From assembly GCA_947449575.1 (NCBI GenBank), contig CANFRV010000002.1, forward strand, positions 62,001-126,000: DNA of 64,000 nucleotides, read 5' to 3'. The notes below the pieces were generated by a model, which worked only from the letters and a program-made list of their open reading frames with translations, was not told the DNA's origin and ran no database searches. Origin of the DNA: Flavobacteriales bacterium (GTDB taxonomy: Bacteria; Bacteroidota; Bacteroidia; Flavobacteriales_D; Crocinitomicaceae). Positions within the stretch are counted from its first letter, which is position 1; the number at the start of each line of letters is the position of its first letter. A program made the position numbers and the translations under genes. Positions 22,053-31,704 of this stretch are shown one piece after another.

Positions 22053-24167
22053 ATGACAACAATATGCTTTGTACAAGTACATACGAACATTAACGAAAAA
22101 TCAATAATAAACACCTTATCACTTCTTCAAGAAGGTGCCACAGTTCCTTTTATTGCGCGTTATCGGAAAGAAATGACCGTTGGGTTAGATGAGGTGCAAA
22201 TTGCAGATATTCGGGATTATTCAAAAAAGTTTGAAGAAATCTGTAGTCGTCAAAAAACGATTCTTTCGTCGATTGAAGAGCAAGGGAAATTAACGACTGA
22301 ATTGCAAGAAAAAATTGGAAATTGCTTTGATTCTGTTGTTCTGGAAGATTTATACTTGCCATTTAAGCAGAAACGGCAAACAAAAGGGGATAAAGCGAAG
22401 AAATTAGGGTTGGAACCTTTAGCTAAGATGATTATGTCGCAAAAAGGAGGAGACCCTTTTGTAATGGCGGATAAATTTATAAAAGGTGATGTTATTGATG
22501 AGGAAATGGCTCTTTCTGGCGCGAAAGATATTATCGCAGAATGGGTCAATGAAAATACGATTGCAAGAGCGAGAGTTCGGACATTATTTCAACGCAAATC
22601 GATTCTTACCACTAAACTAGTTAAGGGCAAGGAAGCAGAGGGGGCAAAATACAGAGATTATTTTGATTTTTCTGAACCGCTTTATAAATGTGCCTCTCAT
22701 CGTTTTTTAGCCTTGTATAGAGCAGAGCGTGAAGGGATTTTATCACTAAAAACTCAGCCTTCAAAAGAAGAAGCATTGGAAAGTTTAGAACGTTTTTTTG
22801 TAAAAGGAAATGACGGTTGTGCGGATCTCGTTTCTGAGGCATGCGCTGAATCCTACAAAAGATTGATGTGTCCTTCGTTGGAAACAGAAACCATGAATGA
22901 AGCCAAAGAAAAGGCGGATAAAGAATCTATAAGAGTTTTTTCAACCAATTTGCGCCAACTTTTATTAGCTCCGCCATTGGGAGCCAAGCGAATATTAGCA
23001 ATCGATCCAGGTTTTGCTTCAGGTTGCAAAGTCGTTTGTTTGGATGAATCTGGAGAATTATTGACCAATGTAAATATTTACCCTCATGCTCCTCAAAAGG
23101 AGGTGGAAAAAGCAAGTTCAAAATTGTTTCAATTAGTTCAAGCCTATAAAATTGATGCCATAGCAATTGGCGATGGCACAGCAGGAAGAGAAACAGAGGC
23201 TTTAGTTAAAAAAGTAAAATTTGACAGAGATTTAGATGTTTTTGTGGTGAATGAAGATGGGGCCTCCATTTATTCAGCTAGTTCAATCGCTCGGAAAGAA
23301 TTTCCAAATTTTGATATCACTGTCAGAGGTTCTGTTTCGATCGGTCGCCGTTTGATGGATCCATTGGCTGAATTAGTGAAGATAGATCCAAAATCAGTAG
23401 GAGTGGGCCAATATCAACATGAAGTAAATCAGGTATTATTGAAAAATGCCTTGGACGATGTAATTGTATCTTGCGTAAATACGGTTGGTGTAGATCTAAA
23501 TACTGCTTCACCTTATTTATTGAGTTATGTTTCTGGTTTAGGCATTTCAATCGCTGAAAATATTGTCCTTTATCGCACAGAAAACGGTGGAATTAAATCG
23601 AGAGAGGATCTGAAAAAAGTCAAACGATTGGGAGACAAAGCATTTGAACAAGCAGCGGGTTTTTTACGAATTCGGGATGCTGTGAATCCGTTAGATAATT
23701 CAGCGATTCATCCAGAAAATTATAAAGCTGTTGAAAAAATGGCGAAGCAATTGAAATTAAAAGTTCCGGAATTGATTGGAAATGAAACGGTTTTGAAAGA
23801 AATTAAAAAAACGGATTTCCCCGATATGGACGGCTATACGTTCGATGACATACTTAAAGAATTAAAAAAACCAGGTAGAGATCCACGGAAAAAAGCAACT
23901 GTGGTGGAATTTGATTCAAGAATTCGCTCCATTGAGGATTTACATGTTGGAATGATTTTACCCGGGATAGTGACGAATGTAACAGCTTTTGGAGCTTTCG
24001 TAAACATCGGAATTAAAGAAAATGGATTAATCCACAAATCGAATTTAGCAGATGTCTATGTGACCGATCCATCTCAATACATTTCATTGCAAGAACAGGT
24101 GCAAGTGCAAGTTTTAGAAGTGGATGCGCCACGAAAGAGAGTAGGGTTGAAGAGGGTGAATGGGTAG
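22053..24167 (+). CDS. tex: Tex-type S1 RNA-binding protein
   Basis: A 704-residue Tex homologue with all core modules: N-terminal helical region (EGATVPFIARYRKEMTVGLDEVQI), a YqgF-like RNase H fold (LAIDPGFASGCKVVCLDESG), helix-hairpin-helix repeats (VGVDLNTASPYLLSYVSGLG to FEQAAGFLRI) and a C-terminal S1 domain (VGMILPGIVTNVTAFGAFVN). Tex binds nucleic acids and influences transcription. The last 35 codons are also present as a decayed copy near 25456, on the far side of the fic gene. The fic stop lies 5 bases after the tex stop on the other strand. Confidence 0.93.
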   Translation: MTTICFVQVHTNINEKSIINTLSLLQEGATVPFIARYRKEMTVGLDEVQIADIRDYSKKFEEICSRQKTILSSIEEQGKLTTELQEKIGNCFDSVVLEDLYLPFKQKRQTKGDKAKKLGLEPLAKMIMSQKGGDPFVMADKFIKGDVIDEEMALSGAKDIIAEWVNENTIARARVRTLFQRKSILTTKLVKGKEAEGAKYRDYFDFSEPLYKCASHRFLALYRAEREGILSLKTQPSKEEALESLERFFVKGNDGCADLVSEACAESYKRLMCPSLETETMNEAKEKADKESIRVFSTNLRQLLLAPPLGAKRILAIDPGFASGCKVVCLDESGELLTNVNIYPHAPQKEVEKASSKLFQLVQAYKIDAIAIGDGTAGRETEALVKKVKFDRDLDVFVVNEDGASIYSASSIARKEFPNFDITVRGSVSIGRRLMDPLAELVKIDPKSVGVGQYQHEVNQVLLKNALDDVIVSCVNTVGVDLNTASPYLLSYVSGLGISIAENIVLYRTENGGIKSREDLKKVKRLGDKAFEQAAGFLRIRDAVNPLDNSAIHPENYKAVEKMAKQLKLKVPELIGNETVLKEIKKTDFPDMDGYTFDDILKELKKPGRDPRKKATVVEFDSRIRSIEDLHVGMILPGIVTNVTAFGAFVNIGIKENGLIHKSNLADVYVTDPSQYISLQEQVQVQVLEVDAPRKRVGLKRVNG

Positions 24168-24172
24168 GAGTA

Positions 24173-25249
24173 TTATCTTTTGCTGTTGTGAAGAGTTAAC
24201 ATTTGAATAAGATCATTGTTTACATAATAATTTGTTTTTCCAATTTTATGTTTTATTAATAATTGACCTGTTGTTAATTGATTTAAATAACTAGAAGCTG
24301 TTATTCGGCTAATATTTAAATCTTCCATTAAGAATTCTATTTTAGTATAAGGTTTTTTAAATAAATGATTTAGCAATTCATGGCTGTAAAATTTATAATT
24401 GTCTCTTAAATTGTATTTAAGATTAATCATTAGATTATTAATTTTAGAAATAAGTATTATCGTATCCTGAGCAGTTTTTTCGACAGCTTCAATCATATAC
24501 AAAAGCCATTCTTCCCAATTATTAGAATCTCTTACTTCTTGCAATAAGCGATAATAATCACTTTTATTTTTTATTATGTAATTACTTAAATACAAAATTG
24601 GTAAATCGAGTAAATCATTTAATACAAGATACAATATATTTATTATTCTCCCTGTTCTTCCGTTTCCATTATAGAAGGGATGTATACTTTCAAACTGAAA
24701 ATGTATAATAGCCATTTTTATAATCGGGTCATAATCACTTATTGTTGTGTCATTGATGAATTTTTCAAGGTTACTCATTAATGAAATTATCTCTTGAGAA
24801 TCTTGTGGTGGTTCAAAAATAATTTCACCTTTTTGATTTTTTAAATTAGTTCCAGGCATTTTCCGCAATCCTGCATGGTTTTTTTCTAGTACACTTTGAA
24901 TTTCGATAATGGTATTAATTGTTAATATTTTTTTTGTTTTAACAATGTCATACCCCTTTTTCAAAGCAGATCCATAGTTTTGTACTTCTTTAGTTGCAGG
25001 AGATATGTAATTTTCAATTGTAAGTGAACTCTTATACAGTTCATCGTGAGTAGTGACAATATTTTCTACTTCTGAACTATCTTTTGCCTCTTGAAAAGTT
25101 AACATATTAATTAAAATATCTTGTTGAGGTAAACTTCTTGCCAGTCCTTTTAGTTCAGCTAATGCTCTATGCGCGCTCGTTAATTTCTTTAAAACTATTT
25201 TGGTTTCAAGTTCTACATCATAAGGCAAGTTCGAAGGTTTCCAACTCAT
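24173..25249 (-). CDS. Fic family AMPylator-like protein with C-terminal winged helix
   Basis: A 358-residue Fic protein with the full active-site motif HPFYNGNGRTGR at residues 190-201, so the catalytic His and phosphate loop are intact. The N-terminal helix carries SSEVEN (residues 58-63), matching the [S/T]xxxE[G/N] inhibitory motif of class II Fic proteins, which blocks productive ATP binding. Residues about 290-350 (HLFKKPYTKIEFLMEDLNIS, then TASSYLNQLTTGQLL) form a winged helix-turn-helix. Proteins of this layout transfer AMP to proteins and may regulate their own promoter. It is inserted between the tex stop and a decayed tex 3' copy, and upstream of it lie 41-bp repeats with internal inverted repeats. 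Confidence 0.92.
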   Translation of the reverse strand: MSWKPSNLPYDVELETKIVLKKLTSAHRALAELKGLARSLPQQDILINMLTFQEAKDSSEVENIVTTHDELYKSSLTIENYISPATKEVQNYGSALKKGYDIVKTKKILTINTIIEIQSVLEKNHAGLRKMPGTNLKNQKGEIIFEPPQDSQEIISLMSNLEKFINDTTISDYDPIIKMAIIHFQFESIHPFYNGNGRTGRIINILYLVLNDLLDLPILYLSNYIIKNKSDYYRLLQEVRDSNNWEEWLLYMIEAVEKTAQDTIILISKINNLMINLKYNLRDNYKFYSHELLNHLFKKPYTKIEFLMEDLNISRITASSYLNQLTTGQLLIKHKIGKTNYYVNNDLIQMLTLHNSKR

Positions 25250-25312
25250 AAATAGTTTAATTTGTATCTACTGATAGTAGGTACGATTTTATGTAAAGAT
25301 AAATTTATTTTT

Positions 25313-25404
25313 TATACATATATTATTTTTCATGTATAGTTTTTTCAATTTTCTATACATATATTATTTTTCATGTATAGTTTTTTCAATTTTCTATACA
25401 TATA
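25313..25404. repeat. 41-bp tandem repeat (2.2 copies) with internal inverted repeat
   Basis: Two identical 41-base units start at 25313 and 25354 and a third, truncated unit starts at 25395. Each full unit carries TATACAT, a 12-base spacer, then ATGTATA, so each copy has a hairpin or dimer-binding palindrome. It is 64 bases upstream of the fic start and is a candidate operator for a winged-helix regulator such as the Fic protein itself. Confidence 0.85.
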
Positions 25405-25455
25405 AAGTAAAAAAAAAGAAGTTTATAGGAAGTTTTTTTAAAGATATTGTAAAAT

Positions 25456-25518
25456 GGACTGATCCATCTCACTATATTTCATTGCAAGGAAGATAGTAGG
25501 TTTGAACAGGGTAAATAG
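25456..25518 (+). pseudogene. decayed copy of the tex 3' end
   Basis: The segment GATCCATCTCACTATATTTC and its surroundings match 29 of 33 bases of the tex coding sequence at 24061-24093. After a deletion of about 43 bases, AGATAGTAGGTTTGAACAGG matches the final tex codons (AGAGAGTAGGGTTGAAGAGG), down to a TAG. It is in the same orientation as tex but 1.3 kb further on, beyond fic. It is non-coding now. Confidence 0.8.
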
Positions 25519-25951
25519 AGATTAGACAGCAAGACATTAGGCCGCTTTGCTCAAAGACTGATGTGGGTCAATACCGAAAGTTGGGGAGCCTATTATAAAA
25601 TATCAAAAAAATGAGTCACTAATTAAATTCATTTCGAAGTGAAGTTGAAATGGTCTTTCCACAGAATTAGTTGTAAATTTTTCCGTAATCGCGTTTCGCT
25701 TTTTACGCGAAAAAAAGCGTGAAGGAAAGTATTTACGAACGGTTTTACGAAATGGAATGCAGTAAAAAATTCCTTGGAAAGATCCTTGATTTTTGCTTAC
25801 TTTTCATCAAGGAAAAGTGAGGAAATGAAAACAAAAGTAGATTTGAAGGTTATTTGAGAGTAGTAGATTTGAAAGTAATTTTTCTAGCACCCCCCACAAC
25901 ATTCGGGTTTGATCCAGACTGATGCTGTATTATCGAAAGTTATTGATAAAA

Positions 25952-26032: not shown

Positions 26033-27343
26033 TTAATATCTGTATTCATCAGATTTGAATGGACCAGCAACTGGAACTCCGATATAATCCGCTTGTTCTT
26101 GCGTTAATTCCTCTAATTCTACAGAGATTTTTGCTAAATGCAAACGAGCTACTTTTTCATCTAAATGTTTTGGTAAAACGTATACATCATTTTCATAATT
26201 CGCACTGTTTTCCCATAACTCTAATTGAGCCAATGTTTGATTAGTGAAAGAATTTGACATTACGAAAGAAGGGTGACCAGTAGCACAACCAAGGTTTACT
26301 AAACGACCTTCCGCTAAAACAATAATGTCTTTTCCTGCGATTGTGTAGATATCAACTTGTGGTTTAACCGTGTTTTTAGTATGACCGTGATTTTCATTTA
26401 ACCAAGCCATATTGATTTCATTGTCGAAGTGACCAATGTTACAAACGATCGCTTTGTCTTTCATGTTTTCGAAATGACGACCAACAATAATGTCTTTATT
26501 TCCAGTTGAAGTAACGATGATATCACCTAACCCAATAACAGTATCTAATTTTTTAACTTCAAATCCGTCCATTGCTGCTTGTAAAGCACAAATTGGATCA
26601 ATTTCAGTAACGATAACTCTCGCTCCAGCTCCAACCAATGAAGCAGCAGAACCTTTACCAACGTCTCCGTATCCACAAACGATAGCCACTTTCCCAGCCA
26701 TCATAACATCCGTAGCACGACGAATAGAATCTACTAAAGACTCTTTACATCCGTATTTGTTGTCAAATTTAGATTTAGTTACTGAATCATTTACATTGAT
26801 TGCAGGCATTACCAAAGTTCCGTTTTTAACACGTTCATGTAATCTGTGAACACCCGTTGTCGTTTCTTCAGATAAACCTTTAATTCCAGCAGTTAATTCT
26901 GGGAAACGGTCAAAAACCATATTTGTTAAATCACCACCATCATCTAAGATCATGTTTAATGGTTGACCATCTTTAAAAGCGAAGATTGTTTGTTCAATAC
27001 ACCAATCAAATTCTTCCTCATTTAAACCTTTCCAAGCATAAACAGGAACACCTGTAGCAGCGATAGCAGCAGCAGCTTGATCTTGTGTAGAAAATATATT
27101 ACATGAAGACCAAGAAACTTCAGCTCCTAAAGCAGTTAAAGTTTCAATTAATACAGCCGTTTGAATCGTCATATGTAAACAACCTGCGATACGAGCACCA
27201 GTAAGTGGTTTTGCAGCACCAAACTCTTCACGAAGTGACATTAAACCTGGCATTTCAGCTTCCGCTAACATTATTTCTTTTCTTCCCCATTCAGCCAAGC
27301 TGATATCTTTTACTTTGTAACCTAATTTCTCAGTTGTGTTCAT
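26033..27343 (-). CDS. ahcY: adenosylhomocysteinase
   Basis: A 436-residue S-adenosyl-L-homocysteine hydrolase, full length. The family signatures are present: [35 protein letters not shown], the NAD-binding [20 protein letters not shown] and the C-terminal FKSDEYRY with the conserved Lys-x-x-x-Tyr-Arg-Tyr. It hydrolyses S-adenosylhomocysteine to adenosine and homocysteine, relieving inhibition of methyltransferases. It is monocistronic, with a TAAATTTG -7 box upstream and a strong terminator downstream. Confidence 0.97.
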
Positions 27344-27420: not shown

Positions 27421-30400
27421 TTATATTAAATCTTTTATTGATGCCTCTTCCTTCTTGTTTCTTTTAGACTTAAAAAAGTCTTTTATTTGATCAATAATGT
27501 GATACATAAATGGAACAAATAAAATTGTAATAAACATAGAACTTGTCAAACCTCCGATCAGAACCCATGCTAGACCATTTTTCCATTCTGCTCCAGAGCC
27601 TTTCGCTACAGCAATTGGAATCATCCCGATAACCATTGCAATGGTTGTCATCAAAATAGGCCGCATTCTTTCTCTCACGGCTTCCAGAAGAGCATCGAAA
27701 GTATTTTTTCCTTGTGCTTTTAAGTGATTCGTAAAATCAACAATTAAGATGGCATTTTTAGCAACCAAACCAAGCAACATAAGCATCCCAAGCATGGTGA
27801 AAATTCCCATATTTGAGGAGGATAGGTTGAGGGCAAACATGGCACCGTAAATTGCTCCGAATAGTGAGAAAACAACCACTAACGGATAAATGTAATCATC
27901 GTAAAGAGCAATCATAATCAGGTAAACAAGAATTAAGCCAATTAACATAGCTGTTCCCATGGCACCCATTCCTTCTTTTGATCTTTTCACTTCTCCACCC
28001 CAAATCATTTTTACATTGTTAGATAATGGTTTTTCTTTCAAATACTCTTCAATTTTTTGAGCCACTGTTCCAGCAGCTGATCCTTGAATATATGCACGAA
28101 TCGTGGTTGAACTTAGTCGATTTTTACGTTCCAAAGAGGCAAAGCCATTTCCAAGCGTAATTTTCGCAAATTCTTCCAGAACGACCGTATTTCCTTTGAC
28201 AGAAGTAAAACTCATATTTTTAATATCATCCACATTCTTTCTATCACCTTGGTCTAACATTACTCGAATATCATATTCATTGTTGTTTTCAGAAAAATTA
28301 GATTCAGAATTTCCTGACAAGGCATTTTGCAATTGCATACCAACTACAGCAATAGGAAGTCCTAATTGCCCCATTTTTTCACGATCTAGTTCAATCCTAA
28401 TTTCAGGAGTAATATCATCTGTTGAAATAGTTGGATCTTTCGCCCCTGGTATGTGAAGAATCGCATCTTTTAGCCTGCGCGCTTCATCCATTAATAACTC
28501 AGTATCGTTGGAAGCTAAAAAGATTTCGATGGGAGCTTCTTCCGATTCTACCATTCCAATATTAATCGCTTTTACTTCTATACCAGCATGCATTTTTTCG
28601 ATTTTCTTTCGAATTTCATTCATGTAATTACTGGTGGTAATTGTGTCCTGCACTTTATCTTTCAATTTGACCGTAAGTTCTGATTTTGATTCATTACCAA
28701 AAGAAGATGCTCCCATTCCAGCACTTGGTCCACCAATATTAGAAAAAACCATTTTCACCTGAGGTTGCGCCAGAATCATTTTTTCAATGTTTAGAGTTGT
28801 AGCATTGTTTTCGTTAAAAGGAGTACTTTTATCGTATTTCAATTTAATCATAAATTTCCCTTGATCTCCTTGAGAAACAAATTCTTGTCCAACGATTCCT
28901 GTTTTCATCATCATTACTAAAGCAAAAGGAAGAACTACAAGAATTACTAAAAATCCAACCCATTTGTGTTTCAGAACCCACCCTGTAAGTTTTACGTATT
29001 GCTCTGTAAACAGAGTAATTCTGCGTTCAAACCAAATCAATATGATATGAAATGGATTCTCTTTCCTCAATTTTGTTTCTTTCGCTAATCTTGAAGCCAA
29101 CCAAGGAGTTAATGTGAAACAAACAAATAAGGACATAATTGTAGAGATGACCACTACAATGGAGAACTGTTTTAAAATATCAGAAATTGTTCCTTCAACA
29201 AAGACAACGGGCAAGAACACAACCACATCCACAAGTGTAATTGCCAGGGCAGTAAATCCAATTTCATTTCTACCATCCAAGGCCGCCTGTCGACTCGTTT
29301 TTCCCATTTTTAGATGCCTATAAATATTCTCCAGCACAACAATTGAATCATCCACTAGAATACCAATTACTAAAGACATTGCTAGTAAGGTCATTAAATT
29401 CAGTGTATACCCAAGAAGATACATGGCGATAAAAGTCGCTATTAAAGATGTTGGTATAGAAATTAATACGATTAGTGCATTTCTGATACTGTGTAAAAAG
29501 AGCATCATCACTGCTGCAACTAATAGGATTGCTAATTCTAAATCATGAAAAACAGCACCAACAGCCTCAACAGTTGGAATTGACGTGTCTGTAGCAACAA
29601 CAAATTTTAAGCCTTCTTTTTTGTATTTTTTTTCTAATTCAGTAAATTTTTCTCGTGTCACTTTTGACATTTCAACAGCATTCGCATCGGATTGTTTTTT
29701 GATCCTCATTCCAATCCCATTTACGCCATTATATCGACTAATAGTCAATTGGTCAACAGCTCCGTCATATACTTCTGCAACGTCCTTGAGGCGAATAGTC
29801 GAATTTCCAGTTGATGATAAAATTAGGTTTTGAAGATCTTCGAGTGTCTTGTATTTTCCCGCTAATCGAACGGTCATTTGTTCATTTAAATCTTTCACTT
29901 TACCCGTTGGAAATTCAATGTTCGCTGCAGAAATAGTTTGATTAATGGAGGCTAATGAAAGTCCTAATAATTTTACTTTGTCTTTGTCAATATTCACACG
30001 AATTTCTCGCTCTTCACCACCTAAAATATTGATTTCGGCAACTCCTTTTGTTTGTTTTAACAAAGGAAAAATATCTTCTTTCATTAATTCAAAAAAGGCG
30101 CGGTCACTTAGGTTTTTACACGTAGCGCTAACTTGCAATACAGGAGAGGCATTCGGTTCAATCTTCGAAATAACAGGAGTTTCTGACCCGTCTGGCAACA
30201 TTCTTTTTATACCTTCAATCTTTCGTTGCGCATCTTGCATCACCGTTTCCAGGTCCACAGAATGATTAAATTCTAACAGCACAATGGATGCATTTTCAAG
30301 AGAAAAAGAAGTTACCTCTTTAATGTTTTCAAGTCCGCTTAATGCGTCTTCCATTTTTTCGGAAACTTGAGATTCTACAATGGCGGGAGATGCTCCTGGA

Positions 30401-30552
30401 TAAGGAGTAGTTACCGTTATTATCGGAGGCGAAAAGTCAGGTAATAACTGATAGCTGAGTTGTTTGTAACTTAATAAACCACCACCGATAAGTATTGTAA
30501 ATATTACAATAATGATGGACGGTCTTTTAATTGCTAGTTCTGTAAGCGTCAT
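27421..30552 (-). CDS. RND efflux transporter permease (HAE1/AcrB family)
   Basis: A 1043-residue inner-membrane RND pump with the usual two-fold layout: TM1 (SIIIVIFTILIGGGLLSY), a large periplasmic domain, then TM2-6, and the same again in the second half. The motif MSLVIGILVDDSIVVLENIYRHL in TM4 carries the paired Asp residues that relay protons (GILVDDSIVV). GMLMLLGLVAKNAILIVDF in TM10 has the matching Lys. Length and topology are normal. It is the last gene of a tolC-adaptor-pump operon; the gap to the adaptor gene is 12 bases. Substrates (drugs, dyes, lipids) are unknown. Confidence 0.95.
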   Translation of the reverse strand: MTLTELAIKRPSIIIVIFTILIGGGLLSYKQLSYQLLPDFSPPIITVTTPYPGASPAIVESQVSEKMEDALSGLENIKEVTSFSLENASIVLLEFNHSVDLETVMQDAQRKIEGIKRMLPDGSETPVISKIEPNASPVLQVSATCKNLSDRAFFELMKEDIFPLLKQTKGVAEINILGGEEREIRVNIDKDKVKLLGLSLASINQTISAANIEFPTGKVKDLNEQMTVRLAGKYKTLEDLQNLILSSTGNSTIRLKDVAEVYDGAVDQLTISRYNGVNGIGMRIKKQSDANAVEMSKVTREKFTELEKKYKKEGLKFVVATDTSIPTVEAVGAVFHDLELAILLVAAVMMLFLHSIRNALIVLISIPTSLIATFIAMYLLGYTLNLMTLLAMSLVIGILVDDSIVVLENIYRHLKMGKTSRQAALDGRNEIGFTALAITLVDVVVFLPVVFVEGTISDILKQFSIVVVISTIMSLFVCFTLTPWLASRLAKETKLRKENPFHIILIWFERRITLFTEQYVKLTGWVLKHKWVGFLVILVVLPFALVMMMKTGIVGQEFVSQGDQGKFMIKLKYDKSTPFNENNATTLNIEKMILAQPQVKMVFSNIGGPSAGMGASSFGNESKSELTVKLKDKVQDTITTSNYMNEIRKKIEKMHAGIEVKAINIGMVESEEAPIEIFLASNDTELLMDEARRLKDAILHIPGAKDPTISTDDITPEIRIELDREKMGQLGLPIAVVGMQLQNALSGNSESNFSENNNEYDIRVMLDQGDRKNVDDIKNMSFTSVKGNTVVLEEFAKITLGNGFASLERKNRLSSTTIRAYIQGSAAGTVAQKIEEYLKEKPLSNNVKMIWGGEVKRSKEGMGAMGTAMLIGLILVYLIMIALYDDYIYPLVVVFSLFGAIYGAMFALNLSSSNMGIFTMLGMLMLLGLVAKNAILIVDFTNHLKAQGKNTFDALLEAVRERMRPILMTTIAMVIGMIPIAVAKGSGAEWKNGLAWVLIGGLTSSMFITILFVPFMYHIIDQIKDFFKSKRNKKEEASIKDLI

Positions 30553-30564
30553 AGTTTTACTTAA

Positions 30565-31620
30565 TTATTTTGTAACAACCTGTGAATTGTTCTGAATATT
30601 TATTTGTCCTTGAATGACTATACGGTCACTACTTGTTAATCCATTTACGACTTCAATGTATTCTCCGTCGCTAGTACCTGCTGTGAAAGAGGTTAAGATC
30701 GATTTACCATTTTTAACCACATAAACACGTGGTTCTTTGGAAGATCCAACTAATGCTTTTCTAGGAATTGAAAGTGCAACAACAGGTTTTGAATTTTCTA
30801 ATTTAACAGACCCATACATTCCGGCCATGATAGGAGTTTCTTGACTATTTTTCAGTAGTACTTCCACTTTAAAATTGTGATTTGCATCTGCTTTTACCCC
30901 AATATTCGATATTTTACCTTTGAACTCTTTATTTTCATAGACATCAACATTGACAATCACTTCTTGTCCATTTTTGAACTTTAAAATATCACGTTCAGGA
31001 ACTGAAATGTTCAATTTAAGCGATGAAATATCTGTCAATTCCAATACAGGACTCCCAACACTTAAGACACTTCCTAAGTCGATCATTTTTTTAGTTACTG
31101 TGCCTGAAAAAGGGGCAGACAATGATGTGTTTCTCAATTGTTTTTTGATTTGTTTTACTTGTGTCTCAGAAGATTTTAGTGCTAATTTTGTTTTCTCACT
31201 TTGAACTCCTGTCACGACATTTTCTTTGATCAAATTTGAGTTTCTCGCATCATCATTTCTTTGACCTTCGACATTTATTTCTGCATTTTCTAGTTGAATA
31301 GATAGCATTTCATCGTCCAGTTTAAGTAAGAATTGACCTTCCGAAATTCGATCACCCTCTTGAAAGCCTAAACGCGTAACTTTTCCCGATCCGTCTGAAC
31401 CAATTATATTTTGTCTAAATGGATCAAATGTACCCAAGAAGGAAAATGAATTTTCAAAAGAATGAGTAGAAGGCTGACCAACTTCAACAAGGATCGCTGA
31501 CGATGCGTCATGGATATACAATTTGCTGGTTACTTTTTCTTTGTTTGAATTTAATTTAACAATGCTAATCACTAATAAAGCGATTGTTATTCCGATAATG
31601 ATAATTACTCTTTTGTTCAT
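30565..31620 (-). CDS. RND efflux periplasmic adaptor (HlyD/AcrA family)
   Basis: A 351-residue membrane-fusion protein with an N-terminal membrane anchor (VIIIIGITIALLVISIV), a barrel-sandwich/lipoyl segment (GSGKVTRLGFQEGDRISEGQ and SLSAPFSGTVTKKMIDLGSV), a short hairpin and beta-barrel plus membrane-proximal parts (GMYGSVKLENSKPVVALSIP). It links the RND pump to the outer-membrane TolC channel. The helical hairpin is short, as in many Bacteroidota adaptors. It sits between tolC and the pump gene. Confidence 0.93.
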   Translation of the reverse strand: MNKRVIIIIGITIALLVISIVKLNSNKEKVTSKLYIHDASSAILVEVGQPSTHSFENSFSFLGTFDPFRQNIIGSDGSGKVTRLGFQEGDRISEGQFLLKLDDEMLSIQLENAEINVEGQRNDDARNSNLIKENVVTGVQSEKTKLALKSSETQVKQIKKQLRNTSLSAPFSGTVTKKMIDLGSVLSVGSPVLELTDISSLKLNISVPERDILKFKNGQEVIVNVDVYENKEFKGKISNIGVKADANHNFKVEVLLKNSQETPIMAGMYGSVKLENSKPVVALSIPRKALVGSSKEPRVYVVKNGKSILTSFTAGTSDGEYIEVVNGLTSSDRIVIQGQINIQNNSQVVTK

Positions 31621-31704
31621 ACGTGTTCGTTTTTTTCTTTAAAAAATAATTTTTTCTGGAGGATTCGAAATCCGGTTTATTTTGTTTTAATTGAGAATGG
31701 TTTT

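Follow-up and report, generated by a model that had tools for sequence, protein, structure and literature searches.

We propose that fic entered this genome together with a foreign tex tail by recombination anchored in the tail, through either a single crossover or homology-facilitated illegitimate recombination (HFIR), and that the old tex end was thereby displaced downstream, a reading to which we assign a probability of roughly 0.55. The locus lies within the window (the whole stretch of 64,000 nucleotides analysed here) and is made up of the following features:

22053 to 24167, plus strand: tex, encoding a transcription accessory protein of 704 aa with Pfam Tex_N, Tex_YqgF, HHH and S1 domains
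22479 to 23519, plus strand: divergent tract inside tex, ~15% from the sister species G002, presumably a separate recombination tract in either lineage
24056 to 24167, plus strand: present (divergent) tex tail, 15% from G002 versus 2.2% just upstream
24173 to 25249, minus strand: fic, 358 aa, SoFic family, with Fic_N, the Fic motif HPFYNGNGRTGR, the inhibitory motif SSEVEN and a C-terminal winged helix
25291 to 25401, minus strand: 41-bp units repeated in tandem ahead of fic and containing the palindromes ATGTATAG-N13-CTATACAT, a probable operator
25457 to 25518, plus strand: decayed second tex tail with a 40-bp frameshift deletion, apparently the displaced resident end
25521 to 25558, plus strand: post-tex-like stretch, similar to the sequence that immediately follows tex in G001, the relative whose gap is empty
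25564 to 25916, no strand assigned: MITE-like dispersed repeat of 353 bp, whose inverted ends are imperfect and which is flanked by an 8-bp target duplication, probably a later insertion
26033 to 27343, minus strand: ahcY, adenosylhomocysteinase-like and named from sequence, the right boundary of the variable gap, with synteny in five congeners

The initial annotation had placed fic between the tex 3' end and a decayed copy of that end, and this arrangement was confirmed. A direct repeat joins 24062-24093 to 25457-25488 (29/32 identical, spacing 1395), and a search of 24062-24093 against the whole 3.5-Mb genome returned a single second copy, at 25457-25488 (E = 1.8e-5). Aligned locally against the following 6 kb, the tex tail reached a top score of 26 (≤18 in 500 shuffles), and the second arm of the decayed tail, past its deletion, scored 19 (≤14 in 2000 shuffles), so that both arms beat all shuffles; chance similarity is ruled out by these scores together with the E-value of the genome search. 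The deletion removed 40 bp and shifted the frame, with CAAG-like sequence at each of its ends, and beyond it stand the last tex codons, whose in-frame reading ends AAT AGA GAT TAG. Of the earlier description of this segment (29/33 bases, then a deletion, then the final codons to TAG), the deletion stood, the identity had to be corrected to 29/32, and the match of the final codons held only after one more small gap was allowed.

The sequences of the two tex tails mark them as separate coding alleles, not as a gene and its recent copy. Across the 64 comparable sites to which the tail-versus-tail comparison extends they differ at 10, and because 8 of these are third codon positions, neither tail is likely to have been copied recently from the other. 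At four sites the decayed tail shows the G002 state against the present tail, at five it shows the state of the present tail, at three it is private and at three more all sequences differ. A recent in-place copy of the present tail is ruled out by the four sites in agreement with G002 and by the mostly synonymous differences. Two states (24071 A and 24089 G) are common to the present and decayed tails and occur in no other congener compared, and the tails are probably sister alleles.

Comparison with G002 places a change of allele within the anchor gene itself, at the junction. Differences from G002 number 12/536 in 23520-24055 and 16/106 in 24056-24161 (Fisher p = 6e-7), an abrupt rise from 2.2% to 15% at 24056, within a few bases of the start of the duplicated segment (24062), and those in the present tail fall mainly at third codon positions. 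Across 11 congeners the tex orthologues share 97-75% amino acid identity. Other divergent stretches were seen: the tract of ~1 kb at 22479-23519 is ~15% divergent from G002 versus 2% on either side, and parts of 28000-31700, a region of efflux-type genes downstream of ahcY, exceed their surroundings in divergence from G002 (up to 16/106), as further mosaic tracts.

On the basis that sequence of the type that follows tex in G001 stands behind the decayed tail, this tail looks like the displaced resident tex end. With the 353-bp MITE-like insertion set aside, the 38 bp behind the decayed tail match the G001 post-tex sequence at 30/38 positions without gaps (score 22 versus ≤17 in 2000 shuffles). 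Counting against our best explanation, the post-tex motif is a loosely dispersed short sequence type, with two copies of its 16-mer core CGCTTYRCTCAAAGAC in the window's genome (G000) and ten in G001. The MITE-like repeat is bounded by the target duplication GACTGATG (25556-25563 / 25917-25924), and other copies have target duplications of their own (AAAACTAG and GAGAAGGG); matches number ~40 each in G000, G002 and G001 and 16 in G007, the remaining congeners have few matches or lack them, and several copies were seen at contig ends. The initial annotation had taken the intact tail for the true end and the second for a by-product copy, a polarity that is probably reversed, given the resident-type sequence behind the decayed tail and the abrupt divergence of the intact tail from G002.

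The initial annotation had suggested an alignment with relatives that lack fic, and this comparison, run on five congeners, yielded five different gap contents, one of them empty. In G000 and in these five congeners the gap is bounded by tex and the convergent ahcY; it contains fic in G000, a gene for a T9SS-sorted protein in G002, for a secreted esterase in G006, for an outer-membrane-like protein in G007 and for a NAD-binding-fold protein in G004, while in G001 it is empty and ~140 bp long. None of the congeners carries fic in this gap, and the existence of an empty site agrees with the earlier view that fic came from outside and was inserted at the 3' end of tex, the second tex end being a by-product. 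Among the ~90 tex loci examined, 80 named tex loci included, fic stands beside tex only in G000; weak Fic-like matches near tex in L184 and L169 were 33% and 26% identical and were rejected. Conversely, no tex was found near fic in the fic loci examined, the relatives of fic at 60-72% identity lying elsewhere.

The fic gene is convergent with tex, its stop codon (24173-24175) lying 5 bp past that of tex. By its sequence it encodes a SoFic-type adenylyltransferase, a putative phage-defence gene of the known single-gene anti-phage kind. All three Pfam domains (Fic_N, Fic and SoFic-like_C) scored above their cut-offs, the PADLOC SoFic model (PDLC03963) matched at full length (residues 4-351, E 1.2e-114), and matches to SoFic structure chains (PDB 3eqx, 3zcn, 9tc4) were about 1e-77. 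The translation retains both the catalytic Fic motif and the inhibitory SSEVEN intact. The NCBIfam SoFic equivalog cut-off was missed (369 vs 550 bits), and the protein is classed as related to the SoFic group, not as an equivalog of it. SoFic proteins have been reported to protect against phage via abortive infection (PMC12249575), and the gene described here resembles them in its canonical Fic motif, its inhibitory S-x-x-x-E-N motif and its C-terminal winged helix. A downstream counterpart of the antitoxin AS1 of that study (PMC12249575) is absent, since the fic-tex interval leaves no room for a gene. A phage origin of fic was considered and rejected, a single 55% match having emerged among 50,697 phage records.

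Upstream of fic, the ATGTATAG-N13-CTATACAT palindromes lie at 25332-25360 and 25373-25401, with a degenerate third at 25291-25319, and these tandem units are a probable operator of fic. Comparable palindromic units stand beside fic relatives in Bacteroidota and Gammaproteobacteria, sometimes downstream of the gene (L140, L141), and their half-sites vary between genomes with both arms covarying; the search was a simple exact-arm scan in which several more distant relatives show few units or none. Autoregulation of fic through the C-terminal winged helix would fit this arrangement, and autoregulation is a demonstrated property of the Fic protein CccR (PMC9755527).

In the explanation that we favour, the tex-ahcY gap would be a variable site driven by recombination, at which incoming DNA from a related lineage, with fic standing behind a tex tail, underwent recombination with the resident tex at ~24056-24065, and the other end of this DNA joined within the resident tex tail at ~25456. 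A circular molecule with a short piece of tex could have joined through a single crossover, or linear DNA through homology-facilitated illegitimate recombination. Either would leave tex intact but ending in a foreign tail, followed by fic with its operator, a 5'-truncated resident tail and the resident downstream sequence. The remnant tail would subsequently have lost 40 bp, and the MITE-like repeat would have inserted behind it. Alternatively, the event may have taken place in a donor lineage, from which homologous recombination then brought in the complete block. The observations are the non-identity of the two tails, the abrupt divergence, the varying gap content, the empty relative and the lack of an integrase nearby; the direction of transfer, the singleness of the event and the type of join are what we infer from them. 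Against this explanation stands the G002 tail: it is equally distant from the present and decayed tails, and the decayed tail is just as distant from it as from the present one. Under the favoured explanation, either the G002 tail must have been replaced as well or the whole block must have been imported ready-made. The consensus of the source assembly (69 contigs) may, moreover, include strain mixing. Neither the 12 congeners, nor a search for fic in 150 family genomes, nor the 80 named tex loci yielded a donor with tex followed by fic, a sampling thin enough that the missing donor lowers rather than excludes the probability of a tail-anchored insertion.

A tandem duplication of the tex tail with its downstream DNA, after which fic either inserted between the tails or took the place of the first downstream copy, would also produce two tails, and we regard it as unlikely. 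It stays a rival because a clear tandem duplication elsewhere in the family starts in the tex tail: in L189 (JAGNZC010000051.1, 8000-10195) the tex tail and the following secreted-protein gene are duplicated, and the second tail is decayed. In the window, however, the tex stop lies 5 bp from the fic stop and no first copy of the post-tex sequence remains, and the divergence between the tails (10/64, mostly synonymous) is far above the 2% background to G002. Improbable, too, is a reversed assignment of the tails in which the intact one is resident and the incoming block, placed behind tex, consisted of fic, a truncated foreign tex tail and the sequence downstream of that tail. The states 24071 A and 24089 G speak for it insofar as, being common to both tails and seen in no other congener compared, they prevent the foreign tail from being identified from the tails alone. 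Yet such a block requires a donor in which fic already preceded a truncated tex tail, and it leaves unexplained why divergence from G002 starts where the repeat starts (24056 vs 24062).

The initial annotation had suggested that fic arrived on a mobile segment using tex as its site. Integrases acting at tRNA genes and at some gene ends let an element rebuild the gene end and displace the old one. A small fic element that integrated site-specifically, using an attachment site located within the 3' end of tex and a recombinase supplied in trans or since lost, would accordingly give a rebuilt tail and a displaced old end in the classical geometry, and fic relatives do occur on plasmids, some of them near recombinase genes. 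The insert of 1.4 kb, however, consists of fic and its promoter repeats only. No recombinase gene lies between tex and ahcY, the nearest matches to the phage-type integrase family (PF00589) on the contig are >55 kb away, and no PF00589 gene was found near tex in 12 congeners. A scan of ~90 tex loci for insertions at the same 3' site revealed no second integration, no other fic and no other such junction, the sole other tail copy being the L189 duplication. Uninterrupted identity between the tails extends over no more than 11 and 13 bp in the two longest runs, with one tail decayed, and fic relatives elsewhere neither sit at tex nor have a common end sequence: no significant tail-like repeats flank those at 57-72% identity, and the repeats that do adjoin some more distant ones are of unrelated sequence. 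We therefore consider this route quite improbable, and the mobile-segment proposal found no backing in either the site or the integrase searches. Two fic loci with flanking similarities were seen in passing: in G010 similar terminator-like hairpins lie on either side of fic (repeat test not significant), and in L152 (G012) a near-identical direct repeat of ~250 bp flanks a more distant fic (47% identity).

Among close tex pairs across the family, the mean excess of tail over body divergence was 0.079 if the downstream gene differs and 0.017 otherwise. This link between a changed downstream gene and a divergent tex tail is a trend (p = 0.08, non-independent pairs) and only a hint. It is conceivable, and we put it forward tentatively, that the tex 3' end serves as a recurrent recombination anchor in the family, where accessory genes, defence genes included, would be exchanged along with a piece of the tex tail and without a dedicated recombinase, occasionally leaving a displaced tail as a fossil.

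The locus preserves well the traces of an event whose kind is already known, the order of its steps being uncertain. Displaced gene ends can be readable fossils of single accessory genes having entered a chromosome unaided by a mobile element; in the present case a stand-alone putative phage-defence gene forms the cargo, and anchor, empty site and remnant are all visible. The tex-ahcY gap would thus offer a convenient test of whether defence genes move via recombination in flanking core genes. Recombination hotspots without mobile elements have been described in many bacteria (PMC5635113), and the gap resembles them in its fast turnover between fixed core genes, the absence of an integrase and the excess recombination in a flanking core gene, though here six genomes were compared and there is about one gene per gap. 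Mosaic donor tracts have been described for transformation (PMC13344027), with which the second divergent tract in tex (22479-23519) may be compared. An experiment in E. coli mainly yielded products in which the end of the anchor gene was partly duplicated (109-950 bp) by single crossovers (PMC3240628). Our locus shares with these HFIR and single-crossover tail duplications the one homologous end, whereas here the event is deduced from sequence, the anchor is ~106 bp long and ~15% divergent, and no donor is known. In the T6SS arrays of V. cholerae, effector genes are displaced sequentially and old gene ends with them (PMC5361080). There as here, a module anchored in a conserved gene appears to push the old 3' end downstream, where a remnant persists, except that at our locus the anchor is the housekeeping gene tex and the cargo a putative phage-defence gene.
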